From contig JARFQE010000116.1 of assembly GCA_029287915.1 (NCBI GenBank), positions 1 to 58,146 of the forward strand: 58,146 nt of DNA, in the 5' to 3' direction. The position numbers and the translations under genes are program-made. The stretch's first letter is position 1. Each line of letters begins with the position of its first letter. The stretch comes from Arenicellales bacterium (GTDB taxonomy: Bacteria; Pseudomonadota; Gammaproteobacteria; BMS3Bbin11). The notes under the pieces were generated by a model. The model was not told the origin of the DNA and searched no databases. It was given only the letters and a program-made list of their open reading frames with translations. This document shows positions 25,114-40,114 of this stretch, piece by piece.

Positions 25114-27390
25114 ATGACCAGTTTTATGCATAAAGGTGCCGGACTGTTTGTTCGATTTTACAAACTGACCCCCGCTATTGTAATTGCCTCTTTATTAACT
25201 GCCTGTGATAAAGGCGAGAATAAAGATGCGAAGCACTCTAAAGCTGAAGTGATTAGCGCGATACAGGCATCATCAACTACAGCAGACAGTATTCAAGTGC
25301 AGGCACATGACAGGCAATCAGATATATTCAAACAAAAGTCGGCTGCATCATTAAAACCATTATCATCCTTCCGGCCCGCTGCAGCAAAGGCAAAGGTCCT
25401 GTTCGAATTACCTGTGTGGGAGAAAACTCCTGCGGAAATTGATTCTTCAGTTGATACAGCGATAGCAAAGGCTGATAAAAAGCTTGATGCTATTGCAGCC
25501 CTGTCAGTTGATGACAGTAATTTTTCAAATACAATCGCTGCACTGGATAGTGCTTTTTACGAAGTCGTCAATATCAGTGATCGCATCGATGTCATAAGAG
25601 AGAGCCACCAGAATAAGGAGATGCGTGACAAGGCGCTGGAAACGAGCAAGAAGATCCAGGCCTGGTATGTTGCTGCGGGATTCCGCGAGGATGTCTATAA
25701 AACGGTAGCAGCTTATGCAGAAACCGGGCCTGAACTGCAGGGAGAAGATGCGATGCTGCTGAAACAAACCCTGCGCGATTATCGACGTAACGGGATGGCA
25801 TTAGCAAAAGATAAACGTGAGCAGTTAAAAGCATTAAAGACTGAACTCAATAATATGAGCCTGGAGTTCGCCACAAATATTACAGATGCGAAAGCTGTTG
25901 TTGAATTCACCGCTGAGGAACTGGCCGGCATGCCAGAGGATTTCCTCAATAACAAGGATTTGAAAACGGAACGGGGAACGTACGAAGTAAAAGCAAATGT
26001 CACCTGGCAATACCTCGCGGTTATGCAGGACGCAAGCAATGAGGACACAAGGAAAAAACTGGTTACGTTACGTTCGAACCGGGCCAGGGAGAAAAACGTT
26101 CCCTTGTTTTCCAAAATGCTAAAAACTCGTGCCCAGATTGCTGAAATGCTTGGTTATGACAGTTGGGCTGATTATCGAATCGAGACTAAAATGGCAAAAA
26201 GCGCCAAAACCGCTTACGATTTTGAACAGCGCCTGGTCAAGGGGCTGGAACCCAAGTTTCAGGCAGAAATGGCATTGCTGCAGAAGCTGAAAGCCGAAGA
26301 GACCAGCAACTCTGACGCAGTGATCAATCTTTGGGATATCCGCTATTACAAGAACAAACTGAAGAAAACACGTTATCAGGTTGATACCGACAAATTAAAA
26401 GTTTATTTTGAACTTGATCGTGTGCTGAACGGTATGTTCGGGATCTTTGAGGAAATATTCCGTCTAAAAATCGACAGGAGTGAACCGGGCTATAAATGGG
26501 TCGAAGATTTGCGTCTTTATGCGGTGACAGATGCAAACTCAGGTACCCCTCTGGGGCTGATTTATATGGACCTGTTCCCGCGCGATAACAAATATGGGCA
26601 TTTTGCCCAGTTTGGTGTGACTACTGGCAAGCTGCTCGACGATGGCGTCTATCAGCGACCTGTCGTGGCCCTGATCTGTAACTTCCCACCGCCTACCGAT
26701 GACAAACCCTCATTGCTCAAACATAGTGATGTGGAAACCCTGTTTCATGAGTTTGGCCACGCCCTGCATTCCGTTCTAACGCAGGCTAAATATGCCTCTT
26801 TTTCAGGTACCTCGGTGCCAAGGGATTTCGTCGAGGCACCCTCACAGATGCTTGAAAACTGGGTTTGGGATAAATCAGTACTGGATCGGTTTGCAGTTGA
26901 TTATCGTGACCCGAGCAAAAAAATCCCAGCACAGACACTGAACAAGATGGAAGAGGCCAGGCTTGCTACCATAGGCACCTGGTATCGTCGTCAATTGTCC
27001 TTTGGACTGCTGGATCTTAATTTACACATGAGCAATGAACGGCAAGACTTCGAAAATTTTGTTGAAGTCAGTAATGACATAATGGCGGATGTTTATCTCG
27101 ATCCTCCCACTGACACTGCCTTTGTCGCCTCGTTCGGTCATCTGGGTGGTGGATATGATGCAGGTTACTACGGATACGCCTGGGCAGAAGCAATATCAGC
27201 CGATCTTGCCTCGGTATTCAAAAGCAGTGATGGTGGTCTGATGGACAGAGAAATTGGTAAACGACTGCGTGATGAAATCTACGCCAAAGGCGGATCGCGA
27301 GAGATTGATGACTCAATACAGGCTTTTCTTGGACGACAACGCTCACTACAGGCTTTCTTTGAGTACATAGGATTGAGTGATGAAAAATAA
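25114..27390 (+). CDS. M3-family metallopeptidase, predicted lipoprotein
   Basis: This is a 758-residue zinc peptidase of the thimet oligopeptidase/oligopeptidase A family, which cleaves short peptides inside a closed channel. The zinc site HEFGH is at residues 545-549, with the third ligand in the following EAPSQ segment. Unlike cytosolic E. coli OpdA and Dcp, it has an N-terminal hydrophobic stretch ending in a lipobox (LLTAC, Cys near residue 33), followed by charged residues, so it is probably lipid-anchored in the envelope. The stop overlaps the next gene by 11 bases. Confidence 0.88.
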   Translation: MTSFMHKGAGLFVRFYKLTPAIVIASLLTACDKGENKDAKHSKAEVISAIQASSTTADSIQVQAHDRQSDIFKQKSAASLKPLSSFRPAAAKAKVLFELPVWEKTPAEIDSSVDTAIAKADKKLDAIAALSVDDSNFSNTIAALDSAFYEVVNISDRIDVIRESHQNKEMRDKALETSKKIQAWYVAAGFREDVYKTVAAYAETGPELQGEDAMLLKQTLRDYRRNGMALAKDKREQLKALKTELNNMSLEFATNITDAKAVVEFTAEELAGMPEDFLNNKDLKTERGTYEVKANVTWQYLAVMQDASNEDTRKKLVTLRSNRAREKNVPLFSKMLKTRAQIAEMLGYDSWADYRIETKMAKSAKTAYDFEQRLVKGLEPKFQAEMALLQKLKAEETSNSDAVINLWDIRYYKNKLKKTRYQVDTDKLKVYFELDRVLNGMFGIFEEIFRLKIDRSEPGYKWVEDLRLYAVTDANSGTPLGLIYMDLFPRDNKYGHFAQFGVTTGKLLDDGVYQRPVVALICNFPPPTDDKPSLLKHSDVETLFHEFGHALHSVLTQAKYASFSGTSVPRDFVEAPSQMLENWVWDKSVLDRFAVDYRDPSKKIPAQTLNKMEEARLATIGTWYRRQLSFGLLDLNLHMSNERQDFENFVEVSNDIMADVYLDPPTDTAFVASFGHLGGGYDAGYYGYAWAEAISADLASVFKSSDGGLMDREIGKRLRDEIYAKGGSREIDDSIQAFLGRQRSLQAFFEYIGLSDEK

Positions 27391-28093
27391 TAAATCCAGT
27401 GCCTTCATACTGGGTTTATTTATCTTTCTGGGCCTGGCCACAGCAGGCAAGCTGCTTGCTAGTGCGGCGATCAGTTACAGGGAATTCGAGCGTACAGTGA
27501 CAGTAAAAGGTCTCGCTGAAAAGGAATATCCCGCCGATATTGTGATATGGCCAATCCAGTTTACTGTCGCCAATAATGACCTGGCTGAACTATATAGTTC
27601 TATTGAGACTAGTACAGACAAGATCAGCAAATATCTTGAAAAAAATGGTATTGATAGCGCTGAAGTATCTCTTTCCAGCCCTGCGATTACCGACAAGTCA
27701 GCTCAAAGCTACAATAATTCAAGACCTGCTGAGTTCAGGTATACCGCTATACAGATAGTGACCGTTTATTCAAGAAAAATTGAGCAGGTTCGTCGTGTAA
27801 TGGCGGGTTTGGCACAGCTGGGGAAACAGGGTATTGTCTTCAGTGGTGGCTATGAAACTCGTCCTGAATATATTTTTACCCGATTAAATGAGGTTAAACC
27901 GTCAATGATCGAACAGGCAACAACCAAAGCGAGGGAGGTTGCAATAAAGTTTGCCAACGACTCAAAGAGTAGGCTAGGGAAGATCAAGCGAGCATCTCAG
28001 GGACAATTCAGTATCACTGGCAGAGACAAAAACAATCCCCATATAAAAAGGATTAGAGTGGTCTCGACCGTTGAGTACTATTTATCTGATTGA
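27380..28093 (+). CDS. SIMPL-domain (DUF541) envelope protein
   Basis: This 237-residue protein has an N-terminal hydrophobic segment (residues about 7-27) that is either an uncleaved anchor or a signal peptide. A SIMPL/DUF541 domain follows: RTVTVKGLAEKEYPADIVIWPI, a repeated-strand core and a C-terminal VVSTVEYYL. Family members such as E. coli YggE and the IRAK-binding SIMPL homologues form large assemblies, but their role is unclear. The ATG at 27380 overlaps the peptidase gene, so the two are probably translated together in the envelope. Confidence 0.85.
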   Translation: MKNNKSSAFILGLFIFLGLATAGKLLASAAISYREFERTVTVKGLAEKEYPADIVIWPIQFTVANNDLAELYSSIETSTDKISKYLEKNGIDSAEVSLSSPAITDKSAQSYNNSRPAEFRYTAIQIVTVYSRKIEQVRRVMAGLAQLGKQGIVFSGGYETRPEYIFTRLNEVKPSMIEQATTKAREVAIKFANDSKSRLGKIKRASQGQFSITGRDKNNPHIKRIRVVSTVEYYLSD

Positions 28094-28254
28094 ATAAGCA
28101 CTAAATGGTAGCTGAGCCGTCTGTTGTCGGTAGACAGCTCTACCACCTTCAACGACTTCTGCTCAGGGAAACCTAAGATCCAGGCATCATCGCTGGCGAC
28201 CTTTGACAGTGCATCCCCGACGACACCACGAATCATTTTAGCTATCAGGTCCAT
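28078..28254 (-). pseudogene. Possible decayed gene on the minus strand
   Basis: The minus strand reads an open frame of 58 codons (MDLIAKMIRG... ending LVLIQSDK) that overlaps the 3' end of the SIMPL gene by 16 bases. It has protein-like composition but no Shine-Dalgarno at its ATG. Just upstream, another minus-strand frame reads IPLYVKNGGKIYGLANGIWT before a stop. The two could be joined by a frameshift, which suggests the remains of a longer gene. I do not recognise the family, and an intact small protein is not excluded. Confidence 0.33.
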
Positions 28255-28328
28255 ATTCCATTGGCGAGTCCATAGATCTTGCCACCATTTTTAACGTACA
28301 AAGGAATAGAACAGGCAACATGGCAAGC

Positions 28329-28349
28329 CACTGATACTTAGTATCAGTG
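28329..28349. repeat. Perfect 9-bp inverted repeat
   Basis: CACTGATAC and GTATCAGTG flank a 3-base centre (TTA). No T tract follows on either strand, so it is not an obvious terminator. It lies in the 364-base gap upstream of the ExbB/vWA gene cluster, about 110 bases before the first chosen start, and could be an operator for a dimeric regulator. No other function is visible. Confidence 0.4.
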
Positions 28350-28457
28350 CACCAACAAGATTTATGCCTGTTTAATTCTAACAGCATTAGTGGGTATTTA
28401 AACTCAGTAGCCATGATTCAGTTACTATTCATCTTTTTTGAGTTAAAGTTATTAATT

Positions 28458-29264
28458 ATGAACAATTGCAGGGCAAAATTTCTGTTAATTCTGCTGCCGA
28501 TATTTTATATCGGGCAAAGTCCTGCTGCGTTGTCTGAACAAGAATTACTGCAGCAGCTGCGAGCTGATTATGCCTCCCTGGTGCAGGCGAGAAATGATTT
28601 TGAGGCATTAAAAAGTCGAGGCAACCCGCGTGCTGAAGAAGTTGCAGACTTTGCTGACTGGATCAGCCAGCTTCGTGATCAGCTGTTTGATGACTGCCAG
28701 AAGCTTGCAGCTATCTCCAGTACTCCTTTGCCAGCGGACCTGCCCTGTAACCGATTGTCTGCCAGTAATCCAGCGCCGGCTAATATCGATATCATCGAAG
28801 AAGCAACTGAAGCACAAAAAACGAAACAACTAACGGATCAACTCAATGGCTCCCTTGGTGAGTTCGACGAACGACTGTTGAGAGAACAGGATCGTATCAA
28901 GGCCCGCACGCCACAAACTGAGACCACAGCCAGTTCAAAGGCGGGAGGTGCGTATGCTGCAGATCAGGCGAACGACTCAGGTAATACTTTGGATAATACA
29001 GGTGACGGTGGACAGGCCGGTCAACAGAGTCAGCGAGCTGGTGAGACTGACAATGAGGGCACTCGTAGCGCCAGTAATGGAATGGGTACACCCGCCAGCT
29101 CATCGTCCGGTACCGAAGGCAGTATTCCTGAAGATATTCCTGATGGCAGCGATGACGATATTATCGCCCGACAGATTCGCGAGGCAGCGGAAAAAGAAAC
29201 AGATCCTGAACTAAGAGCGAAACTGTGGGATGAATATCGGCGTTACAGGGAGGCAATACATTAG
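28458..29264 (+). CDS. Exported protein of unknown function, first gene of ExbB/vWA cluster
   Basis: This 268-residue protein starts MNNCRAKFLLILLPIFYIG, a signal peptide with probable cleavage after PAALS. It continues with a helical region (residues about 28-80), a low-complexity Gly/Ser/Asn/Thr linker (about 160-220) and a highly charged helical C terminus rich in Asp, Glu and Arg that ends with EYRRYREAIH. An in-frame GTG at 28347 would extend it by 37 residues but would bury the signal sequence, so I use the ATG. I recognise no family. The next gene starts 9 bases downstream, which places it in the same operon. Confidence 0.65.
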   Translation: MNNCRAKFLLILLPIFYIGQSPAALSEQELLQQLRADYASLVQARNDFEALKSRGNPRAEEVADFADWISQLRDQLFDDCQKLAAISSTPLPADLPCNRLSASNPAPANIDIIEEATEAQKTKQLTDQLNGSLGEFDERLLREQDRIKARTPQTETTASSKAGGAYAADQANDSGNTLDNTGDGGQAGQQSQRAGETDNEGTRSASNGMGTPASSSSGTEGSIPEDIPDGSDDDIIARQIREAAEKETDPELRAKLWDEYRRYREAIH

Positions 29265-29273
29265 AGGCCGAAG

Positions 29274-30482
29274 ATGACTATTAGTAGAAATCTTTTTGTA
29301 ATATTTGCTCTGTTTGCTCTACTGACAGGCTGTGCTACAACTGCCGGGGAGCGCACTGTCAAACAGCAGGAAGTTCTGCAGAAAGCAAAGCAGGAACTGC
29401 CTGAGGAGCAGCTACTTGATGTCTGGATCGAGCAGTTTAAGCCTGGTGAACTAGCACAGGACAAGAACAAAAATCGTGGATTATCGATGGAAATCCGCGA
29501 GGCTGAGGCTCGTTATGTGCCGGTCCACCTACGCAGTGTGATGGAAAAAACCGGATATTGGGGCGCAGTAAGGGTGGTACCGCGTGATACTGAAGGGGCA
29601 GAAGTCCTTGTTTCTGGCACTATCAAGGAGTCCGATGGGGAAAAGCTGGTAATCGAGATTACAGCAATTGATGCCACTGGGCGCAAGTGGTTCAATCGTG
29701 AATACAGCGGTACTGCAGAGAGCTATCAGAAACTGAGTCCAAACACTGATAGCTTTGAACCTCTTTATCATGCCATTGCCAATGACCTGGCACAGTACCG
29801 CAATAAACTCGCGAATAACGAACGGACCACTATCCGGCAGATTGCCGAAATGCGTTTTGCAGCTGACATGGTAGCGGATGCGTTTGCTGGTCATCTAATC
29901 AAGGATGAAAAAGGTCGTTACAGTCTGCTCAGGTTGCCGGCTGAAGATGATCCTGCCTACCGTCGTGTTCAGTTAGTACGTGAGCGAGACTATCTTCTGA
30001 TTGATACGCTTAACGGCCACTATGACAACTTCTATCGAGAGATGGTTTTTCCTTATATGGAATGGCGTCGGGCACGCAGCATAGAAGCCGCTGCCTTACG
30101 CGAGGTCAAGAAAAAAGCCAACACCCAGAAGGCATTAGGAGTTGCTGCTATCCTCGGTGCAATTGCAATCGAAGCATTGGGTGGTTCCAATAACAATGTG
30201 CCAACTGGAACTATGCGAGATGTTATGGTTATTGGCGGACTTTATTCAATTAAGCAGGGAATCGACACCAATGCGCAAAGTACTATCCACCAGGCAGCCA
30301 TTGAAGAGCTTGGTGAGTCGTTCAGCATTGAGGCAAAACCACTGGTCATCGAGGTTGACGGCGAGGAGCATGAACTAACGGGTTCCGCTGAAGCGCAGTA
30401 TCAACAATGGAGGGAGCTGATGAGAAAAATCTATGCTTCTGAAACTGGCCTGGATCCCGTCTCCAGCAATACAGGTAACTGA
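29274..30482 (+). CDS. Lipoprotein of unknown function in ExbB/vWA cluster
   Basis: This 402-residue protein has a lipoprotein signal peptide ending in LLTGC (Cys near residue 19), with Ala at +2, which suggests outer-membrane sorting. The region to about residue 150 alternates beta-like strands and includes a segment like a stand-alone envelope fold (VLVSGTIKESDGEKLVIEITAID). A helical middle follows, and then a short hydrophobic glycine-rich stretch near residue 290 (ALGVAAILGAIAIEALGG) that may contact a membrane or other subunits. No family is recognised. It is closely spaced with both neighbours. Confidence 0.7.
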   Translation: MTISRNLFVIFALFALLTGCATTAGERTVKQQEVLQKAKQELPEEQLLDVWIEQFKPGELAQDKNKNRGLSMEIREAEARYVPVHLRSVMEKTGYWGAVRVVPRDTEGAEVLVSGTIKESDGEKLVIEITAIDATGRKWFNREYSGTAESYQKLSPNTDSFEPLYHAIANDLAQYRNKLANNERTTIRQIAEMRFAADMVADAFAGHLIKDEKGRYSLLRLPAEDDPAYRRVQLVRERDYLLIDTLNGHYDNFYREMVFPYMEWRRARSIEAAALREVKKKANTQKALGVAAILGAIAIEALGGSNNNVPTGTMRDVMVIGGLYSIKQGIDTNAQSTIHQAAIEELGESFSIEAKPLVIEVDGEEHELTGSAEAQYQQWRELMRKIYASETGLDPVSSNTGN

Positions 30483-30486
30483 TTCA

Positions 30487-31968
30487 GTGGATTATGATCT
30501 AAGACCACCTGGCGTAACTCCTGCCAGCTCTAAAGCACCGGAAACAAAAATCATTGCAGCAGGTGGCAATGGCCTGCATCGTCTGGTCTGGGCACTGCTT
30601 GGATTTATTGTTGCCCTGACACTAGTTGTCCTGTTTGTTTTACCCTACATGGTTGCCGACCAGCTGGCAGATGAAGACACAACAGTCGCTGGCGCGGCTG
30701 ATGTCATGCAGCCGCCGCCACTGGCAATCAGTGTTGTGCGTCAGGATGCCGAGCAGGCACTGCAAAAATTTTTACACCTGCGCGCGCAGCCGGATCTAGC
30801 GAATGCTGAGCAGTGGGCAAATGGAGCCTGGCAAGCGGCGATGGATGCAGCTGCTGCTGGGGATGATCATTATGGCCGAGGACAATTCAACGCTGCTTTA
30901 CTATCCTATGAAGATGCCAGCCAGCAGTTGTCTGATCTGCAGGCCAGCCGGATGAAGCGCCTGACAGATACCCTTGCGCGTGGCTGGCAGCTTCTGCAGC
31001 AGAATGATACGGATGAGGCTGTTGAGGCTTTTGAAAGGGTCCTCGCCATGCAGCCGGACAAGCAAGAAGCGCGCCGCGATGCACAGCTAGGTCTTGCGCG
31101 TGCCACGGTGAGGGATGAAGTATTGAAGCTGATGCAACAGGGAAAACACGCCGAGGCCGATAATAATTTGCAGCTTGCAGCCCGATCCTATGCAGCTGCA
31201 TTGCAGCTCGATTCACTTTATGTACCTGCACAGAAGAGCTCTCAGCTGGTCAATGCCAGGCTTGATAGTCTCGCTTTTCAGGAAGCCATGGGCGAGGCAT
31301 TGCATAGTCTGGATAGCGGAAATCTAAAGATTGCTCAACAAGCCATAGAGATCGCTGCGCGGATCTATCCCGATGAGCCTGCGGTAAAAGATGCCCGGCG
31401 ACGTCTTGCAGCTGCCCAGCATCAGTCCAGGCTGAATAACTTGCGCAAAAAGGCTGAGCAATCTGCACAAAATGAAAACTGGTCAGTTGCTGCTGATTAT
31501 TATCGCAAAGCGATTGAGCTTGATGCACGGGCTGCCTATGCCCGTAGTGGGCTTTCCCATGCGCAGAAGCGCATGCAGCTGCACGCGCAGCTTGACCATT
31601 ACCTGTCTGATAGCACACGACTTTCTTCAAAAGAACCATTGGATAATGCGCGTAAACTGCTGGAATCGAACAAACATCTACCTGCAAACGAGCCAAATCT
31701 ATCGAGAAAGATAGCCAGCTTGAAGGAGGCCGTCAGGCTTGCCTCATTGCCAGTTAATTTATATCTCCATTCAGATAACGAAACCGACATAACAATATTT
31801 CATGTCGGACGATTCGGTAAATTTCTGGAAAAGCAGGTCACGCTACGACCTGGCCAGTATACAGTGGCCGGATCCCGTCCCGGTTACCGGGACGTGCGCA
31901 AGGTCATCGTTTTGCAACCTGGAACCAAAACACAGTCTCTGCTGATACGCTGCCGGGAGCCGATTTGA
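30487..31968 (+). CDS. Membrane-anchored TPR protein with PEGA-like C terminus
   Basis: From the GTG at 30487 the protein has 493 residues: a short cytoplasmic N terminus, one membrane segment at about 32-55, then a periplasmic array of TPR-like helical repeats (about 110-390, with segments such as ALLSYEDASQQL, AVEAFERVLAMQPDK and AADYYRKAIELDARAAYA). The C-terminal beta domain (GKFLEKQVTLRPGQYTVAGSRPGYRDV) resembles PEGA. An ATG at 30433 would overlap the lipoprotein gene by 50 bases. GTG sits 4 bases after that stop and is preferred, though neither has a strong Shine-Dalgarno. A scaffolding role is inferred. Confidence 0.7.
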   Translation: MDYDLRPPGVTPASSKAPETKIIAAGGNGLHRLVWALLGFIVALTLVVLFVLPYMVADQLADEDTTVAGAADVMQPPPLAISVVRQDAEQALQKFLHLRAQPDLANAEQWANGAWQAAMDAAAAGDDHYGRGQFNAALLSYEDASQQLSDLQASRMKRLTDTLARGWQLLQQNDTDEAVEAFERVLAMQPDKQEARRDAQLGLARATVRDEVLKLMQQGKHAEADNNLQLAARSYAAALQLDSLYVPAQKSSQLVNARLDSLAFQEAMGEALHSLDSGNLKIAQQAIEIAARIYPDEPAVKDARRRLAAAQHQSRLNNLRKKAEQSAQNENWSVAADYYRKAIELDARAAYARSGLSHAQKRMQLHAQLDHYLSDSTRLSSKEPLDNARKLLESNKHLPANEPNLSRKIASLKEAVRLASLPVNLYLHSDNETDITIFHVGRFGKFLEKQVTLRPGQYTVAGSRPGYRDVRKVIVLQPGTKTQSLLIRCREPI

Positions 31969-34391
31969 GTCGTGACTATTTCATTAATGATGCGCGTGGG
32001 CAGAGACATGCCAGCGAAAAAGAACTGCCGTTGCCAGTTGGTGGAAAAGATCTTGCAGGCATCGTTATTCCGGGGCTTGAAGCTGACCAGCTGCTTGCCC
32101 ATATAGCTCTTTCACAGGGGCATGCATACATTCAGCCAGCTGGTAACTACGACAGTCTCTACCATAATGACGAACGCCTGACTGATTCTGCCTGGCTCAA
32201 ATCTGGAGACCGGATCCAGATAGGCGATTCTGTCATGAGCTGGGAAGTGCAGGGAGACAAAGTACTTATCAAGGTGTTCAAGATGTCGGAACTGCATCAC
32301 CCGAGTCCACCAGTGCAGCCGCCGCCGACCCGTTCACCCTCTGAAAATGATGCTATGCCGGTGCACACGGAGGATATAGAGCATGGATCCGGTAGCAGAC
32401 GTCGACGCAGAATTATTCTCATTGTTGTCAGTTTCCTGCTGCTGGCTGCAGTATACCTGTTGATGGTGACACCACTGGTCATAAAAGTCGAACCGCAAGC
32501 TGCAACTATTACGATGAAAGGTTTTCCTCCGCCGCTATCATTATGGGATTCCTGGCTGGTATTCCCGGGGCGCTATATCATGCGGGCCAGGCACCCCGGT
32601 TATTACCCGCTTGATGAAGAGCTTGATATCAAGATGGGTGGGACGAATGATCTGTCTTATGAGCTGATAGAGCTGCCCGGTCTGTTGAATATCAAAACAA
32701 ACCCGGTCGTGGATTTTAAGCTATATGTGGATGACGATGACGTTGATACAGTGTTGAACGATGAGGGAATGGCAGAGATCAAACGGGGAAGTCATCGACT
32801 GCGTATCGAGACAGAGCGTTATCTCGACCATCAGCAGGAGTTCGATATTCAGGGATATGGCAGGCAGCAGCAACTGGATGTCAGCTTGCAGCCTGGATGG
32901 GCAGCTATCTCGATTTTCAGCCAGCCTGTCGGGGCAGAGGTTCTTGTCGATGGAGGGCTGGTCGGACTGACACCGCTGGTGACTGACATACTACAGGGGC
33001 AGCATCAAATTACATTGAAAAAACAGGGCTTTAAAAGCGTAAGCTTTATGCAATCTGTAGAAGCTGGCATTGCTGTCAGGCTGCAGGAAATTCAGCTGCA
33101 GCCGGTTGATGGTCAGCTTACTATAAGCAGCACTCCGGAAGGGGCAAGTGTGATGGTGGAAGGTAAGTATCAGGGTACGACACCGGTGACAGTAAATCTG
33201 ACCGCCAATACGGAACATACACTTCTGCTGAGCAAGGCGGGCTACAGCACGAAACAGCAGCGCATTACCCTGAAACCGGAACAAGAGAGCGCCATCGAAG
33301 TAAAACTGAATGCCGTTTATGGCACAGTATTTCTAACAACACGGCCTGCTGGCGCGACGGTGGAGATAGATGGCAGAAAGGCTGATATTAGTAGTGGGCG
33401 TCTGCGACTGACGACCCGCTTACATACACTTACGGTCAGTAAACCTGGCTATGTCACAGAGCGATTGTCCATCACACCTCGCCGGGATATTAGCCAGAAT
33501 GTAAGCATTTCACTGAAGACAGCCCAACAGCAGGCAGCACAGCAGAAATTGTCCGCTACACCACTGGTCATTACAACGAAGGCAGGTCAGCAACTGCAGC
33601 TGCTGAAGCCAGAGCAAAGTTTTACCATGGGGGCATCTCGTCGCGAAGCAGGACGGAGGGCCAATGAAAATAAGCGTCTGGTGAAACTGCAGCGCCCGTT
33701 CTATTTTGCCCGTAACGAAATCACTAATGAAGAATTTCGTCAATTCCGTCCCTCGCATGACTCTGGCCGTCTAGATGGTGCGGCACTTAATGGTGACACA
33801 CAACCGGTTGTCAATATTAGCTGGGATGATGCTGCGCGCTACTGCAACTGGCTAAGTGAGAAGCATGGCCTGGCAAAGGCTTACACCGAAAAAGGCGGTA
33901 AAATGGTTGCAGTTAAACCAATGACGATCGGCTACCGCTTAGCCACCGAGGCAGAATGGGCCTGGGTAGCACGTATGTCCGCTCAACAATCAGAGCAACG
34001 CTACCCGTGGCAAGGTGGATTCCCGCCAGTCAGAAAAAGCGGTAATTTTGCGGATGCAAGCATTGCAGACACGCTGGCGGATGTGGTGCCAGATTATGAT
34101 GATGGCTTCCGTGGTAGCGCACCAGTGGCCAGCTTTCCTGCATGGCCGAAGGGCTTTCATGACCTTGGTGGTAATGTTGCCGAGTGGGTAAATGATTTTT
34201 ATACAGTTTACCCGGGGGAGGCGAATCGAATGGTGACGGATCCACTGGGTCCGGCCTCGGGTGAGCATCATACTGTACGTGGATCCAGCTGGCGGCATGG
34301 CAATATCACAGAGTTGAGATTGAGCTTCCGTGACTATAGTAATAAACCGCGTTACGATCTAGGATTCAGGATTGCACGTTATGCAGAGTGA
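31965..34391 (+). CDS. Membrane protein with FHA-like, PEGA and FGE-like domains
   Basis: This 808-residue protein starts at a TTG that overlaps the previous stop (TTGA). Domains in order: a degenerate FHA-like domain (about 18-105, with LKSGDRIQIGD but without the usual phosphothreonine-binding Arg/Ser/His pattern), a basic stretch RRRRR and a membrane segment (about 150-171), at least three PEGA-like repeats (about 180-520, e.g. FSQPVGAEVLVDGGLVGLTP), and an FGE/SUMF1-type domain (about 560-807: FYFARNEITNEEF, YRLATEAEWAWVAR, GNVAEWVNDFY). It contains one cysteine only, so the two-cysteine chemistry of formylglycine formation is impossible. A binding or structural role is likely. Confidence 0.8.
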   Translation: MSRDYFINDARGQRHASEKELPLPVGGKDLAGIVIPGLEADQLLAHIALSQGHAYIQPAGNYDSLYHNDERLTDSAWLKSGDRIQIGDSVMSWEVQGDKVLIKVFKMSELHHPSPPVQPPPTRSPSENDAMPVHTEDIEHGSGSRRRRRIILIVVSFLLLAAVYLLMVTPLVIKVEPQAATITMKGFPPPLSLWDSWLVFPGRYIMRARHPGYYPLDEELDIKMGGTNDLSYELIELPGLLNIKTNPVVDFKLYVDDDDVDTVLNDEGMAEIKRGSHRLRIETERYLDHQQEFDIQGYGRQQQLDVSLQPGWAAISIFSQPVGAEVLVDGGLVGLTPLVTDILQGQHQITLKKQGFKSVSFMQSVEAGIAVRLQEIQLQPVDGQLTISSTPEGASVMVEGKYQGTTPVTVNLTANTEHTLLLSKAGYSTKQQRITLKPEQESAIEVKLNAVYGTVFLTTRPAGATVEIDGRKADISSGRLRLTTRLHTLTVSKPGYVTERLSITPRRDISQNVSISLKTAQQQAAQQKLSATPLVITTKAGQQLQLLKPEQSFTMGASRREAGRRANENKRLVKLQRPFYFARNEITNEEFRQFRPSHDSGRLDGAALNGDTQPVVNISWDDAARYCNWLSEKHGLAKAYTEKGGKMVAVKPMTIGYRLATEAEWAWVARMSAQQSEQRYPWQGGFPPVRKSGNFADASIADTLADVVPDYDDGFRGSAPVASFPAWPKGFHDLGGNVAEWVNDFYTVYPGEANRMVTDPLGPASGEHHTVRGSSWRHGNITELRLSFRDYSNKPRYDLGFRIARYAE

Positions 34392-34397
34392 GAGACG

Positions 34398-34628
34398 GTG
34401 GAGATAAGTATTTATAAACCTGTCTTGTCAATAGTTCTGGCGATTGCCTTATTCCCTGCAATGGCTGAGCAGACTGATACTGACCCAAAAGCTCCATCAT
34501 CCACGGCTGCGCCTGTACAGGACATCTCCAGTGAATCCTCAAAACAAGATTTTAAGGCCACTGAGCGATTTACTCCATCGGAAAAGCTTCGAGCCGATGA
34601 CGCGGTATCGTTTCCAGTGGATATATAA
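34398..34628 (+). CDS. Small exported protein in ExbB/vWA cluster
   Basis: A 76-residue protein begins at a GTG 6 bases after the previous stop. The N terminus (SIYKPVLSIVLAIALFPAMA) is a signal peptide with cleavage near AMA-EQ. The mature part of about 50 residues is polar, rich in Ser, Thr, Asp and Pro, and probably disordered. No family is recognised. The tight spacing indicates co-translation with the FHA/PEGA/FGE-like gene. Confidence 0.6.
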   Translation: MEISIYKPVLSIVLAIALFPAMAEQTDTDPKAPSSTAAPVQDISSESSKQDFKATERFTPSEKLRADDAVSFPVDI

Positions 34629-34640
34629 ATTATGAGTTTC

Positions 34641-34691
34641 AGGTTTTACGATTTAGGTTTTACGTAATCCGTAATACATAAAACGTAAAAC
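34641..34691. repeat. Intergenic repeat with GTTTTACG units
   Basis: The 111-base gap before the ExbB-like gene holds two direct copies of AGGTTTTACG (34641-34650 and 34655-34664). It also holds an inverted copy that makes a 9-bp stem (34657-34665 with 34683-34691). No T tract follows. The layout resembles small palindromic intergenic repeats of the REP type inserted in an operon spacer. Confidence 0.5.
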
Positions 34692-34739
34692 TATATAGAT
34701 AAAGCCATATCATCAAAAATACATGACGACATTACCAAT

Positions 34740-35534
34740 ATGAAAAAAACCTTGCCGACTGAATTCATCTATCAGGTCTTCGCGCTGCTGATTTCCTTTA
34801 TCATCGTGCATGCCGTGTATGTCACGCTTGTCCGTCCCTCTGCAACGAGCCACCTGCAGCAGGAAGCGGCTAATATAGCCGCAGACCCGGCATATGTTCC
34901 ACAGGAATCGCTGTTTGTTGTCATTAAGGACTACGAACAGGAAACCTGCTTCGTTTTGATGCTTTGGGCCCTGTCCATATTGAGCTACAAGGGACTGGCT
35001 GCCTGGCGTCAGCATAAGCTGCTTGAACGTGATCTTTTACAGTTGCCGAAAAGCCTGCCCATCGGCCCGGAAGATACCCGTGAACTTGCTGAGCGTGTGC
35101 ATGGCCTGCCGTCATTAGAGAAGCAGTACCTATTGCCTCGAGCCCTGCTGACCGGGATTGAACGCTTTAGTGCTACCCGTAATGTGCAGGATGTATCGAC
35201 TGCTGTCGGGGATGTATGTGATTCGGAAGGCGAGCGGCTCGAATCTGAACTATCGATTATTCGCTACATCGCCTGGGCTATCCCATCGGTGGGATTCATT
35301 GGTACTGTACGTGGCATCGGTGATGCGCTTGGTCAGGCACATCGTGCAGTAGGAGGTGACATTTCCGGGGTTACCGAAAACCTTGGTGTGGCTTTTAACT
35401 CGACTTTTGTCGCACTGGTAATCAGCATCATTTTAATGTTCTTCATCTACCAGCTGCAGCTTTTGCAGGAGAGGTTGGTGCTGGATAGTGAGCGATACGT
35501 TGATCACTGGCTGGTGCGGAAGCTCAGGTCATGA
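34740..35534 (+). CDS. MotA/TolQ/ExbB family proton channel protein
   Basis: This is a 264-residue inner-membrane protein with hydrophobic segments at about 10-31, 70-88, 174-193 and 217-240. The last pair matches the conserved TolQ/ExbB core: IPSVGFIGTVRGIGDAL with Thr189, and NLGVAFNSTFVALVISI with Ser221-Thr222, where TolQ and ExbB have their channel threonines. These proteins form pentamers around a dimeric ExbD/TolR/MotB partner and convert proton flow to motion. No ExbD or TolR gene is adjacent; the next two genes encode vWA proteins with an ExbD-like membrane aspartate. The spacer before it is 111 bases. Confidence 0.85.
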   Translation: MKKTLPTEFIYQVFALLISFIIVHAVYVTLVRPSATSHLQQEAANIAADPAYVPQESLFVVIKDYEQETCFVLMLWALSILSYKGLAAWRQHKLLERDLLQLPKSLPIGPEDTRELAERVHGLPSLEKQYLLPRALLTGIERFSATRNVQDVSTAVGDVCDSEGERLESELSIIRYIAWAIPSVGFIGTVRGIGDALGQAHRAVGGDISGVTENLGVAFNSTFVALVISIILMFFIYQLQLLQERLVLDSERYVDHWLVRKLRS

Positions 35535-35545
35535 AAAAAAGTCTG

Positions 35546-35607
35546 AAGTTCCAAATACCAGCCTGCAAGATGTTGGTTCTAGCTTTTTTACTTGCTACCT
35601 GGAACTT
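35546..35607. repeat. AAGTTCCA inverted repeat in operon spacer
   Basis: AAGTTCCA at 35546-35553 is matched by TGGAACTT at 35600-35607. The 93-base spacer between the ExbB-like and first vWA genes consists largely of this element. Related words occur at 43340-43362 and 51663-51712, so it looks like a dispersed intergenic repeat family. Confidence 0.45.
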
Positions 35608-35627
35608 GTAACGGTTTTTCGATAGTA

Positions 35628-36719
35628 ATGAAACGCCGATCAATATCACCGTTCTCGCTGTCGTTCCTCGACATTATGTTCTGTGGCTTTGGTGCTGTTG
35701 TACTACTGGTGCTAATCCTCAATGCGGATACGGTGCAGGCGCGCAATGAGGTTTTTGCTGATTTGCGTTCAGAGGTTGTGCGAATGGAGAACGAGGTGAT
35801 TGTCGGACGTGAGAATATGGTTGTCGCACGCAATAGTCTCGAGGCCACTGAAAAAGATCTTCTGCTAATACAGGGTGATGCCGAACGTATACAGCAAAGC
35901 ATTCTGGAAATCGAAGCAGGCCTGACCAATCTGCGCCATCAAACTGCCGCAAGTCAAGAACATATTAAACAGCTTAAATCCGATGTCAGCGGGCTGGATA
36001 AGAAGACCCGGCATTTATCGGCAGAGCAACAGGATAAACGTAATCAGGGCAGCAAGGTACACCAGTTTTCTGGTGAGGGTAAGCGTCAGTATTTGACTGG
36101 TCTTAAGCTTGGCGGAAAGCGTATCCTGATACTGCTTGATGCATCGGCCAGCATGCTCGATGAGACCATTGTCAATATCATCCGCTTGCGCAATATGAGC
36201 AATGAACATAAGCGTGTCGCCGACAAGTGGCAGCGAGCCATGGCAACGACTGAGTGGCTGATAAGCAACCTGCCCGATTCCGCAGAGTTTCAGCTTTACC
36301 TTTTTAATACAGAGTCACGTGCAGCACTCGCATCAAGCAAGGGCAGCTGGTTGTCAGCGAGTCAGACGGCTGATGTGGCAGCTACGGTCAAAGGACTGCG
36401 CCAGACAGTGCCGCAAGGTGGCACCAGCCTCTACCATGCTTTTGAAACTGCGAAATTACTGAAACCCAAACCAGATAACATTCTGCTCATAACGGATGGT
36501 CTGCCAACACAGGGGCGTAGCAAACCGTCAAAAGCAACAGTGAGTAGTGAACAACGGCTACAGCATTTCAGCCGCGCCGTGAAAGTTATCCCTGCAGGCA
36601 TACCCGTCAATACTATTCTGCTACCGATGGAAGGTGATGCTTATGCAGCAGCGGCATACTGGCAACTCGCTGTGGACACGAAAGGTTCTTTTCTGACACC
36701 GGCAAGGGACTGGCCATGA
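35628..36719 (+). CDS. Membrane-anchored vWA domain protein 1 of ExbB cluster
   Basis: From the ATG at 35628 the protein has 363 residues: a basic cytoplasmic N terminus, a membrane segment at about 12-34 starting FSLSFLDIMFCGFGAVVLL, a long coiled coil (about 38-140) and a von Willebrand A domain (about 163-363). The MIDAS metal motif is D171-x-S173-x-S175 (DASAS), with a later GGTSLYHAF threonine loop and LITDG aspartate. Asp15 is placed like the proton-accepting aspartate of ExbD, TolR and MotB. A TTG at 35592 would add 12 residues from the repeat and is rejected. The stop overlaps vWA protein 2 (ATGA). Confidence 0.83.
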   Translation: MKRRSISPFSLSFLDIMFCGFGAVVLLVLILNADTVQARNEVFADLRSEVVRMENEVIVGRENMVVARNSLEATEKDLLLIQGDAERIQQSILEIEAGLTNLRHQTAASQEHIKQLKSDVSGLDKKTRHLSAEQQDKRNQGSKVHQFSGEGKRQYLTGLKLGGKRILILLDASASMLDETIVNIIRLRNMSNEHKRVADKWQRAMATTEWLISNLPDSAEFQLYLFNTESRAALASSKGSWLSASQTADVAATVKGLRQTVPQGGTSLYHAFETAKLLKPKPDNILLITDGLPTQGRSKPSKATVSSEQRLQHFSRAVKVIPAGIPVNTILLPMEGDAYAAAAYWQLAVDTKGSFLTPARDWP

Positions 36720-37717
36720 GCAGGACACGTCGACGTGATATTGATATTTTTAACCTGTCGTTTCTGGACGTCGTGTCATGTGGTTTTGGGGCCATCATTC
36801 TTCTGCTGGTGATTGTCAAGATTGGCGAGCCTCGTGTCATAGAACGTCTAACAGTCGATCTCAGCGGTCAGGTGCAGAAACTAGAGCAAGAATTGTTTCA
36901 GATTCGTGGCGAGACCAGTGTGTTGAATCGAGACCTGACCGAAAAACAGCAGCAATTGTCGGTCAGTAGAGAAAAACTGGCGCGCCTGAAAGGCAGTCTG
37001 TCTGATATCAAGGGACAGTTTGCCAATATGCAAAAAGAGCGTGATGCGCAGGCAATCATCGAGGGACAGCTTTACAGCGCACAGCAGAACCTGACAGAGG
37101 AGATGCGTCGACTGCTGAAAAGCAGGCAGAAGCTAAGTAGCAGTCGTATCGGTGGTGTACCGGTCGATAGTGAGTACATCATTTTTATTATCGATACTTC
37201 CGGTTCGATGAACCAGTTCGCTTGGTCACTGGTGCTGAAGAAAGTAAGTGAAGTGCTTAAAGTCTACCCAAAGGTGAGAGGCATACAGGTGATGAACGAT
37301 ATGGGTGAATACATGTTCCAGGCCTACAGCGGAAAATGGATACCAGATTCACCTTCACGACGCCAAGCAATCAACCAGCGCCTGGCGAGCTGGAGACCTT
37401 TCTCCAATTCCAGTCCAGTGGAAGGTATCGAGGCAGCCATCAGTCGATTTTATGCAAAAGACAAACGTATTAGTCTGTATATCTTTGGTGATGATTTTTC
37501 ACAAGGCTCTATCGAGAAAGTAATCAACACTGTAAATCGCCTTAATCGTGCTGACCGTAGTGGCAAACATCGTGTCCGTATTCATGCAATAGGTTTTCCT
37601 GTGCTGTTTAATGTTAGTGGTATGAACAGCAATGCTGTGCGGTTTGCTGCCTTGATGCGCAAGCTGGCAGAGAACAATGACGGCACCTTTGTCGGCCTGA
37701 ATAGTATTCGGCCATAG
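36716..37717 (+). CDS. Membrane-anchored vWA domain protein 2 of ExbB cluster
   Basis: This 333-residue paralogue of the preceding protein has the same plan: basic N terminus, membrane segment at about 14-35 (FNLSFLDVVSCGFGAIILLL), coiled coil (about 40-140) and vWA domain (about 152-333) with the MIDAS motif D160-x-S162-x-S164 (DTSGS). Asp18 corresponds to Asp15 of its partner. The MIDAS threonine loop is replaced by a serine-rich SNSSPVEG. The 4-base overlap with the first vWA gene suggests equal synthesis, consistent with a heterodimer on the ExbB-like ring. It is the last gene of the cluster; no terminator was found. Confidence 0.83.
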   Translation: MSRTRRRDIDIFNLSFLDVVSCGFGAIILLLVIVKIGEPRVIERLTVDLSGQVQKLEQELFQIRGETSVLNRDLTEKQQQLSVSREKLARLKGSLSDIKGQFANMQKERDAQAIIEGQLYSAQQNLTEEMRRLLKSRQKLSSSRIGGVPVDSEYIIFIIDTSGSMNQFAWSLVLKKVSEVLKVYPKVRGIQVMNDMGEYMFQAYSGKWIPDSPSRRQAINQRLASWRPFSNSSPVEGIEAAISRFYAKDKRISLYIFGDDFSQGSIEKVINTVNRLNRADRSGKHRVRIHAIGFPVLFNVSGMNSNAVRFAALMRKLAENNDGTFVGLNSIRP

Positions 37718-37980
37718 AGCAAGGAAAAACCCAAAACAGAAGACAAATACTGGCTAATAATGACATAGTTGTGATGTAAGGAGCTTCTCTGACAGCATAA
37801 AATGCTGCAACTGGCTACATTAAGCAGTAAGGAAATTGGTCGCTATCGGCTACGCTTGATACTCAGCCGTTATCGGTCAGTGCGAATAAATTGATGTCTC
37901 TATACGGACTATCCATTTATCCAGTATAACGCTGTCTTAGAAAGTTAAAATTAATTCAATCTATAATAGAGTAAGCGATA

Positions 37981-38148
37981 TCATTTTTTTTCAACGGTCG
38001 TATCGGCCCCGTTATTTACTGCAGCAGCATTATCGTCTTGCTGCATAATATCCTGAGCAGCGATAAATTCTGCTTCTGCAGCGGGATAGCCCTCTTTACG
38101 AAGTTGTAGCGATCTACTTATGACCCTGCATTTCTGATATTGATCCAT
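37981..38148 (-). CDS. Small hypothetical protein
   Basis: This 55-codon gene is preceded by CTGGAG, a good Shine-Dalgarno at 6-7 bases from the ATG. The product starts MDQYQKCRVISRSLQLRKEG, continues with a helical segment rich in Ala and Glu (YPAAEAEFIAAQDIM) and ends in an acidic, probably disordered tail with KK at the end. No membrane segment and no recognised family. It is an isolated minus-strand gene in a gene-poor stretch. Confidence 0.55.
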   Translation of the reverse strand: MDQYQKCRVISRSLQLRKEGYPAAEAEFIAAQDIMQQDDNAAAVNNGADTTVEKK

Positions 38149-38796
38149 TTATTACTCCAGAGTTGAGCGAGTACGTCATGAATAAGCATAAATAGTAAAA
38201 TCATTGACGATACAGTTTTTATGTTGATTTCAGAATTATCATAATTTTTCGATGAATTGACTTTAAGGGTAAATCGAAGCGTCTGTATGTGTATGTCCGC
38301 CAGCTGACATATTCAGTTAACATGACTGAGATAAATACAGCTCTGTACAGTGATACGATTTCTGCCTTGGCGAAGAGAATTCCACTATCTCAAGCAAGAA
38401 TCTCCTGATTCATTTATCTATATGAAGCGTCAGATATGATCCCCTGTAAAAGTCAGTATATAGTTATTATCGTATTACCTTTATTCTTATAACTGGCTTA
38501 CAGTATACAAAGTCATAATGTCTTTGAGTATAGTGGAAAACCCTGAATGACTGATGCGGGTTGCGGATTCAAATGGTCAACGCAATATTTTGTTAGAATA
38601 AAGCAGCAGCGTTGGAGTTTAAATTATGGCGTGCAGGCATGGGAGACAGCAGGCTCGACAACAGTCAAACCTAACAAGTGACCAGAGCCAGTCGAGTATA
38701 TGCATGCATGCGTCTTGGCAGATTGGGAATACGACAGCGTGAAGCCTTCTGAATACAGATTAAATTCTAATTTTGTTTTAAATGAATTTATGTGTG
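38149..38796. other. Gene-poor AT-rich region
   Basis: This is 648 bases without a convincing gene. A 38-codon frame (38626-38742, plus) has a GGAG 8 bases upstream but unconvincing composition, and I do not call it. The preceding stretch 37718-37980 is also empty. I saw no tRNA, terminator with T tract or insertion-sequence end here. Confidence 0.5.
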
Positions 38797-39150
38797 TCAG
38801 TTGACCGGCACCTCAACTTTATAACGTAGAGTTAATGTCGAGCTCTGGGGATTGGTCCACATCAGACAATAGGTTTGCATGCTGTCTGCTGACAATGCTC
38901 CGTTTCTGCTAATCATCATTTGTTCAGTAACAGGGTATCTGATCTCTTTCCCCTGGTGATAATGTATATTGAAAAGCGCTGCCGAGGAACTTTGAAAGGA
39001 GTAGCTAAGTTTCACACCGGTATCTAGCTCGTGACAGGACTCGTGGACTTCACCTGTACGAAGATTGAGAGATCGATTCTCATCAGCATGAACAATTGAG
39101 CAGTAACTGAGAATAATCGTGGTCAGGACAATAATGTATTTGATGTACAT
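38797..39150 (-). CDS. Small exported hypothetical protein
   Basis: This 117-residue protein has a signal peptide (IKYIIVLTTIILSYCSIVHA, cleavage probably after VHA). The mature part of about 95 residues is predicted mostly beta, with two or three cysteines (ESCHELD, TYCLMW) that could form a disulfide in the periplasm. No family is recognised. It is divergent from the exported methyltransferase gene, with 214 bases between them. Confidence 0.6.
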   Translation of the reverse strand: MYIKYIIVLTTIILSYCSIVHADENRSLNLRTGEVHESCHELDTGVKLSYSFQSSSAALFNIHYHQGKEIRYPVTEQMMISRNGALSADSMQTYCLMWTNPQSSTLTLRYKVEVPVN

Positions 39151-39364
39151 GGGAATAGAATTATTTTTTCCTTCGGTTGCAGACTTTATATACTAGCCTT
39201 TTTTACGTCACTGTGCAGAATATATCTACCATCAAACATGTTATGGTATTTACCCTTTCTTTTTTAGTTATCCCTGTTCTTGAATTACAGGTGCTTCGTC
39301 GTATATAACGTATGGATCTCAATATGCTGGCATTAGATCATTTTGATTTACAGGAGGACTCTCG

Positions 39365-40114
39365 ATGAAAGTATTAAATTCACGTACAGGTATACTTGCT
39401 TCACTACTTGTTGCGTTTGCGGGAGCTGCCAGTGCTGTCTCCTATGCTGTTGATCCGACAGAAAGTGCACGTATGGAACTGATCAAAATCATTGAACAAG
39501 ATGTCAGGCAGACTAGTCGTGAACTGAACAAGAGCGAGCTTGATCCACGTGTGATGCAGGTGATGGCACGTGTACCTCGCCATGAGTTTGTGCCAGCAGA
39601 AGAAAAGCCTAATGCCTATGAAAACAGGCCGCTGCCAATTGGTTATGGACAGACCATATCACAGCCATACATCGTCGCAATAATGACTGACATGCTAAAT
39701 CTAAAGCCTGACAGTAAAGTGCTGGAACTGGGTACGGGCTCAGGTTATCAGGCAGCTATACTGGGTGAACTGGCGGGTGAGGTTTATACAATCGAAATCG
39801 TTGAACCTCTCGGGCTTTCAGCGAAAGAGCGTTTGCAGCGACTTGGTTACGATAATGTTACTACAAAAGTGGGTGATGGATACTATGGTTGGGAGGAACA
39901 TGCCCCATTTGATGCCATTATCGTGACTGCGGCAGCCAGTCATATTCCACCACCGTTGATCAAACAGCTAAAACCCGGCGGTCGTATGGTGGTGCCAGTT
40001 GGTAGCCGTTTCATGACGCAGCAGCTGCTACGGGTTGATAAGGGTCTTGATAACAAGGTGGTCAGCAAACAGATAATGCCAGTGTTGTTCGTTCCGGTAA
40101 CCGGAAAACATTAG
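39365..40114 (+). CDS. pcm: Exported protein-L-isoaspartate O-methyltransferase
   Basis: PIMT methylates isoaspartyl residues with S-adenosylmethionine to start repair of aged proteins. The 249-residue protein has the family core: ALPIGYGQT-like RPLPIGYGQTISQPYIVAIM, the SAM-binding motif VLELGTGSGYQ at about 119-129 and IIVTAAASHIPPPLIKQLKPGGRMVVPVG. Unlike E. coli Pcm (208 residues) it has an extra N terminus with a clear signal peptide (residues 1-24, ending AGAASA), so it is predicted to be periplasmic, where SAM is not expected. A strong AGGAGG Shine-Dalgarno supports this start. Confidence 0.88.
   Translation: MKVLNSRTGILASLLVAFAGAASAVSYAVDPTESARMELIKIIEQDVRQTSRELNKSELDPRVMQVMARVPRHEFVPAEEKPNAYENRPLPIGYGQTISQPYIVAIMTDMLNLKPDSKVLELGTGSGYQAAILGELAGEVYTIEIVEPLGLSAKERLQRLGYDNVTTKVGDGYYGWEEHAPFDAIIVTAAASHIPPPLIKQLKPGGRMVVPVGSRFMTQQLLRVDKGLDNKVVSKQIMPVLFVPVTGKH

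Follow-up and report, generated by a model that had tools for sequence, protein, structure and literature searches.

The window, i.e. the whole stretch of 58,146 nucleotides that was analysed (contig JARFQE010000116.1 of an Arenicellales bacterium, assembly GCA_029287915.1), carries eight genes in a same-strand run from 28458 to 37717 (+). The run and its spacing of -4 to 111 bases, reported in a preliminary description of this DNA, are confirmed from the open reading frames. The genes and their products are listed below.

28458..29264, + strand: sm1, small exported protein 1, 268 aa, signal-like N terminus
29274..30482, + strand: lipoprotein, 402 aa, lipobox LLTGC
30433..31968, + strand: membrane TPR protein, 511 aa, TPR_2, one membrane helix
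31965..34391, + strand: scaffold with FHA-like, PEGA and FGE-like domains (Pfam, hydropathy), TTG start
34398..34628, + strand: sm2, small exported protein 2, 76 aa, conserved C-terminal motif
34740..35534, + strand: ExbB/TolQ/MotA-type channel, 264 aa, MotA_ExbB
35628..36719, + strand: vWA1, 363 aa, membrane helix, coiled coil, vWA head
36716..37717, + strand: vWA2, 333 aa, membrane helix, coiled coil, vWA head

The membrane and exported labels first given to these products are also borne out by hydropathy, with one helix each in the TPR protein, the scaffold, vWA1 and vWA2, and signal-like N termini in sm1, sm2 and the lipoprotein. The reading frame of the TPR protein is open from the ATG at 30433, which results in a 50-base overlap with the lipoprotein gene; the GTG at 30487 (gap of 4) is the likelier start. 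Promoter and terminator scans of the cluster gave results near chance. The intergenic stretch 34629-34739, 5' of the channel gene, holds repeated gttttacg and acgtaaaac-like elements, and a gene for a SIMPL-domain (DUF541) protein (27377-28093) lies immediately upstream of the cluster.

Relatives were collected by searching one genome per species with an alignment of five vWA2 sequences, which returned at least 493 matches. The best 80 of these, with up to 10 kb on either side, were taken as the locus set, and their open reading frames were sorted into families by iterated profiles. Among these best 80 of at least 493, with the count restricted to loci whose upstream sequence was long enough, the scaffold was present in 55/55 loci, the ExbB-like protein in 66/67, sm2 in 63/66, the TPR protein in 45/47, the lipoprotein in 29/30 and sm1 in 17/18, and the gene order was identical nearly wherever the contig permitted, in several phyla. 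Likewise, in a second set of 20 further regions from a sample of the window's class, all 18 regions that had room contained the scaffold, the TPR protein, sm1 and vWA1, and ExbB and sm2 were present in 17 each and the lipoprotein in 16. The flanks are not common to the loci, the most frequent flanking family occurring in 13 of them. The co-occurrence proposed in the preliminary description as a check therefore holds, the families recurring together in the 80 and in the 20 further loci, and the eight genes are one conserved set whose linkage is supported beyond chance. The cluster occurs in 30/370 sampled genomes of the window's class (~8%) and, in its full type, in 3/246 of a Planctomycetota sample; a search of viral contigs and plasmids gave no relatives of it. 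Geothermobacter hydrogeniphilus HR-1 (locus L086) is one of its carriers.

Most of the locus exceptions that were examined are method artefacts, sequence gaps or truncation. For example, sm2 of locus L024 has 53 residues, which is below the length limit of the search, and the exception at L098 is an overlap in ORF calling; an upstream gene loss at L034 was rejected, as a run of N starts at the break. In L083, sm2 was not found. One family, that of genomes G089, G199 and G285, departs from the order, with ExbB placed after vWA2 in two genomes. In G199, ExbB is unlinked, although a different contig of this genome carries it (E 3e-100), which implies that motor and vWA pair are retained jointly even when unlinked. 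The lipoprotein is missing from 2/3 genomes of this family, and since those genomes are 99-100% complete, it would be dispensable in this lineage.

The ring protein matches MotA_ExbB with an E-value of 1.1e-14, above the curated Pfam cut-off; its profile gave no ExbB/TolQ match among solved structures at E 0.01. Two threonines, T189 (35304-35306) and T222 (35403-35405), are each invariant in the alignment of 88/88 relatives. By their position, T189 in FIGTV and T222 in the last helix, we take them to correspond to the pore threonines of TolQ/ExbB. The membrane helices of the vWA proteins each hold an invariant aspartate in their N-terminal part, namely D15 of vWA1 (35670-35672; 95/95 aligned) and D18 of vWA2 (36767-36769; 98/98 aligned). 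The two proteins are paralogous along their full length (hhalign E 1.1e-37). Their Pfam vWA matches, 4.7e-05 (VWA_2) and 0.0014 (VWA), are below the cut-offs, and the metal-site motifs are complete in both, i.e. DASAS (36138-36152), T266 and D290 in vWA1 and DTSGS (37193-37207), S232/S233 and D259 in vWA2. Across the aligned relatives these MIDAS residues vary little or not at all, which is consistent with the metal binding predicted for both heads. A correlation between the stalk lengths of vWA1 and vWA2 was rejected (Pearson 0.60, Spearman p 0.24), as it is carried by one outlying locus.

The usual partner of such a ring is lacking from the neighbourhood. An HMM built from 20 gammaproteobacterial ExbD/TolR sequences found no match among 7,794 open reading frames of ~100 loci, and Pfam detected no ExbD or OmpA domain in the window proteins. 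The normal ExbD gene beside the ExbB-like gene, named earlier as the observation that would count against the proposal, is thus found in none of the ~100 loci. Two ordinary ExbD/TolR genes are found in the window's genome on other contigs (C128 and C55), and the one on C55 has its own ExbB/TolQ-like match less than 100 bases away. The aspartates of the vWA helices can be aligned with that of the ExbD/TolR helix, but the score is not significant; against the ExbD/TolR profile the hhalign probability is 3-9%, and in pairwise comparison 232-1425 of 3000 shuffles score as high, neither being significant. A correspondence of the vWA helix to the ExbD helix is suggested instead by the place of the aspartate, the gene context and the lack of another partner. 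One conserved gene set in which an ExbB-type channel is joined by vWA proteins where the ExbD/TolR partner would be is backed by the linkage and order of the genes and by the invariant residues, in support of the preliminary description. The ExbD-like placement of the Asp-bearing vWA helices goes beyond that description.

An arrangement of this kind was predicted independently as the TolQ + TPH-vWA class (PMC12204202; Mol Biol Evol 2025, msaf138, Fig. 4c,d). The passages on that class describe paired vWA proteins having a transpore helix with an aspartate, in tight co-occurrence with tolQ homologues and without tolR/exbD, as well as a conserved threonine ring and a heterologous vWA pair beside the TolQ-like gene. 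The class was detected starting from Idiomarina (the vWA proteins of Idiomarina loihiensis) and is given for Proteobacteria and Verrucomicrobia, and AF3 models place the vWA helices inside the pentamer (PMC12204202). The window shares with this description the TolQ-like gene adjoining a heterologous membrane vWA pair, the helix aspartate and the ring threonine, and has no tolR/exbD/motB-like gene in the cluster, the MotB-like absence being judged by Pfam on the window proteins and the loci-wide HMM covering ExbD/TolR only. The cluster probably belongs to the predicted class, as judged by the features described there. In those passages the class is a motor with a vWA pair, and the eight-gene set, the Hsp70-FHA protein, the kinase and the lipoprotein fold are unmentioned; a search of the open-licence literature brought up no account of the larger gene set. 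What is apparently new here is the eight-gene set, the Hsp70-FHA protein and kinase of relatives, the lipoprotein fold, the distant Planctomycetota loci and the empty site, which are treated below.

The scaffold combines PEGA (Pfam 1.2e-41, three stretches) and FGE-sulfatase (5.3e-34) domains in one protein. Its N-terminal domain is degenerate and FHA-like, with a weak Pfam call (E 0.053), and is followed by a membrane helix at residues 150-168, the PEGA repeats and the C-terminal FGE-like domain. The final 120 residues of the window protein, with the FGE catalytic stretch, are free of Cys, and the same is true of 53/75 related proteins. As the catalytic Cys pair is missing, this domain is unlikely to be an FGE enzyme. 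In NCBIfam the scaffold is matched best by GldK/PorK (E 3.3e-24), far under the cut-off of that model, and FGE enzymes have this likeness too. The TPR protein has TPR_2 (E 2.5e-07) and a PEGA-like C-terminal domain, and in the window it is without a kinase domain. The small proteins have strongly conserved C-terminal motifs, DDDiVARQLREAAekEtDPeL.eKLWeEYr.YK in sm1, which has a low-complexity middle, and F.PsEki.aDsaVsFPvDI in sm2.

The lipoprotein consists of a FlgT/PelC/CsgG/TolB-N-like domain, long helices and a hydrophobic Gly-rich segment. Its predicted structure (pLDDT 83, pTM 0.80) was matched by VIA-align over residues 30-183 to FlgT (Z 11.1), to CsgG (Z 9.1) and to TolB (Z ~8), and to PelC with Z 10.0 at 2.5 A over 112 residues. 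Several of these proteins are ring formers located at the outer membrane or close to it. The model apparently has the FlgT/PelC/CsgG/TolB-N fold and resembles a ring former, an assignment made because of the VIA-align matches, as Foldseek alone gave nothing below 1e-3. In ~10 gammaproteobacterial loci the operon extends with two lipoprotein-like genes and an M48-type metallopeptidase, hinting at a role in outer-membrane quality control. Examples of such extensions are as follows.

L132:14315-17140
L131:13842-15834
L090:10977-13707
L142:2170-4148

Among the best 80 of at least 493 relatives, 30/80 loci carry an additional gene, placed between ExbB and vWA1. The model of its product (pLDDT 88.8) has an Hsp70 nucleotide-binding domain, matched to DnaK with Z 31.7 over 336 residues, and C-terminal to this an FHA domain, which Pfam recognizes in 19/27 of these proteins. 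Locus L073, another of the locus exceptions, is probably a member of the lineage with this gene, its available sequence being too short. The TPR protein carries a fused Pkinase domain in 8/47 aligned members and in L018, and the HRD-type catalytic motif is clear in nine loci, all of which have the Hsp70-FHA gene. A dependence of the kinase on Hsp70-FHA (9 to 0, Fisher p 0.002) was rejected, as it is not significant once phylogeny is considered (3 independent pairs). No more than two state changes are needed for the Hsp70-FHA gene on a tree built from 81 concatenated core proteins, where the window sits among the rows without this gene; a search of the window's genome with the Hsp70-FHA profile found no copy. 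This genome is without the kinase fusion as well, having the degenerate FHA-like domain only.

Distant relatives in Planctomycetota have a single vWA protein with a longer stalk and an Asp helix, adjoining ExbB. For example, L172:2831-6969 and L173:8660-13792 are compact loci in which ExbB is accompanied by a single vWA protein with a long stalk and by a multi-FHA membrane protein; L173 also has a trypsin-like domain and a neighbouring stand-alone Ser/Thr kinase. As kinase and FHA parts are found in these distant relatives too, the link between the motor and phospho-signalling is probably old. Another planctomycetotal locus, L171:7724-11855, has two membrane partners of different kinds beside its ExbB-like gene, the helix of one containing an Asp (LDSFLDVV) and that of the other lacking it (FPFLAVLICTVGA); a heterodimeric motor having a single ion site is possible there.

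The cluster has a natural empty site in a sister species (G001, L217 15115-15169), where the flanking genes, presumably an M3-type peptidase gene before and pcm after, are ~53 bases apart. The alignment extends through the upstream gene to window position 27389 and resumes with pcm from 39443, such that 27390-39442 is missing and the cluster is gone together with the SIMPL gene, as a single block. As the sister species is without the whole cassette, the function of the cluster would be dispensable.

The reading favoured here, with a probability of about 0.7, is a trans-envelope, ion-driven machine of the 5:2 type in which a paired-vWA axle would replace the ExbD/TolR dimer. It is drawn from the joint inheritance of the genes, the invariant residues, the paralogy of the vWA proteins, the lack of a neighbouring ExbD and the independent prediction (PMC12204202). 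Five ExbB-like subunits would form the ring, as in the ion-flow-driven motors MotAB, ExbBD, TolQR and GldLM, and one helix each of vWA1 and vWA2 would fill the pore in place of the ExbD/TolR dimer. The vWA aspartates may serve as ion-binding residues opposite the conserved threonine pair of every ring subunit, and the coiled-coil stalk would hold both heads in the periplasm. There, the heads may turn or pull on their partners, i.e. the scaffold with its PEGA arms and FGE-like tip, the TPR-PEGA protein, sm1 and sm2, and the lipoprotein. Control from the cytoplasm is probably through phospho-signalling, because relatives have a TPR-fused Ser/Thr kinase and the Hsp70-FHA protein. We infer one physical complex, its stoichiometry, the heterodimer, the ion flow and the movement; the most likely target would be the outer membrane, in envelope maintenance or in the assembly of a surface structure.

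The candidate machine resembles ExbBD, TolQR and MotAB in its MotA_ExbB domain, pore-type threonines and an Asp near the start of the partner helix, but differs in lacking an ExbD or OmpA-like domain and in having vWA heads on a coiled coil and two paralogous axle proteins. The type IX secretion ring, GldLM with GldK/N, is likewise an ion-driven motor system having an FGE-fold partner, and GldK is a ring protein in the system that GldLM drives. However, GldK is a lipoprotein, whereas the FGE domain of the window belongs to a membrane protein that also has FHA-like and PEGA parts; the cluster showed no further T9SS gene. The gliding motor AglRQS also joins one MotA/TolQ-like ring protein to two different axle proteins, but the AglQ/S axles have TolR-like cell-wall-binding domains (PMC9389320). 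The AglRQS axle is without vWA heads.

The vWA helices could alternatively dock outside the pentamer, as in TonB/TolA, with an unlinked genomic ExbD/TolR filling the pore. The two ordinary ExbD/TolR genes elsewhere in the genome could supply this subunit, although the one on C55 lies close to an ExbB/TolQ-like match of its own, and the ~100 loci are without an ExbD gene. A vWA family with an SHLS motif beside tolQR-like genes is described as side-docking in PMC12204202, but that paper assigns the helix Asp, which is invariant here, to the in-pore family; side-docking is therefore judged unlikely. It is also improbable that the cluster is a signalling or sensing system, in which ion flow or a mechanical change would report the envelope state, with the FGE-like tip as sensor, to be read by the kinase, FHA and Hsp70-FHA proteins. 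Such a system would suit the TPR-fused kinase and Hsp70-FHA protein of relatives and the kinase-FHA-ExbB-vWA loci of Planctomycetota, and FGE and vWA domains are reportedly named in papers on putative antigen-sensing conflict systems. Against this, the lineage of the window keeps the entire periplasmic side without kinase or Hsp70-FHA, and a conserved output gene is absent.

An anti-phage defence of the Zorya kind is the least probable of these explanations and very unlikely. A MotA-type channel in a cassette missing from a sister species, with a weak ZorA match (E 0.0066), is what ZorAB would bring to mind. However, ZorB, ZorC and ZorD, and thus the ZorB-type and effector genes, are absent from the cluster, in agreement with the preliminary description, which had set Zorya aside. 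The remaining matches to defence models are weak and lie in coiled-coil or repeat stretches, those of the vWA proteins in PADLOC being dismissed on the ground that they are located in coiled coils, and the neighbours are housekeeping genes.

The favoured reading, an ion-driven machine with a paired-vWA axle, may be carried further. Tentatively, and at slightly less than even odds, it would constitute a distinct machine class. The axle of such a machine would be a vWA heterodimer on a coiled-coil stalk, working on a PEGA/FGE scaffold and on a lipoprotein ring in the outer membrane, under a cytoplasmic Ser/Thr kinase and Hsp70-FHA switch. To our knowledge, ion-driven 5:2 motors are known from few settings (the flagellum, Ton, Tol, gliding, type IX secretion and Zorya). 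If the reading is true, the cluster would represent a widespread further motor type with vWA heads, present in several phyla, whose role is unreported. The gene set, the residues to mutate, the relatives with kinase and Hsp70-FHA and the natural empty site would make this role directly testable.
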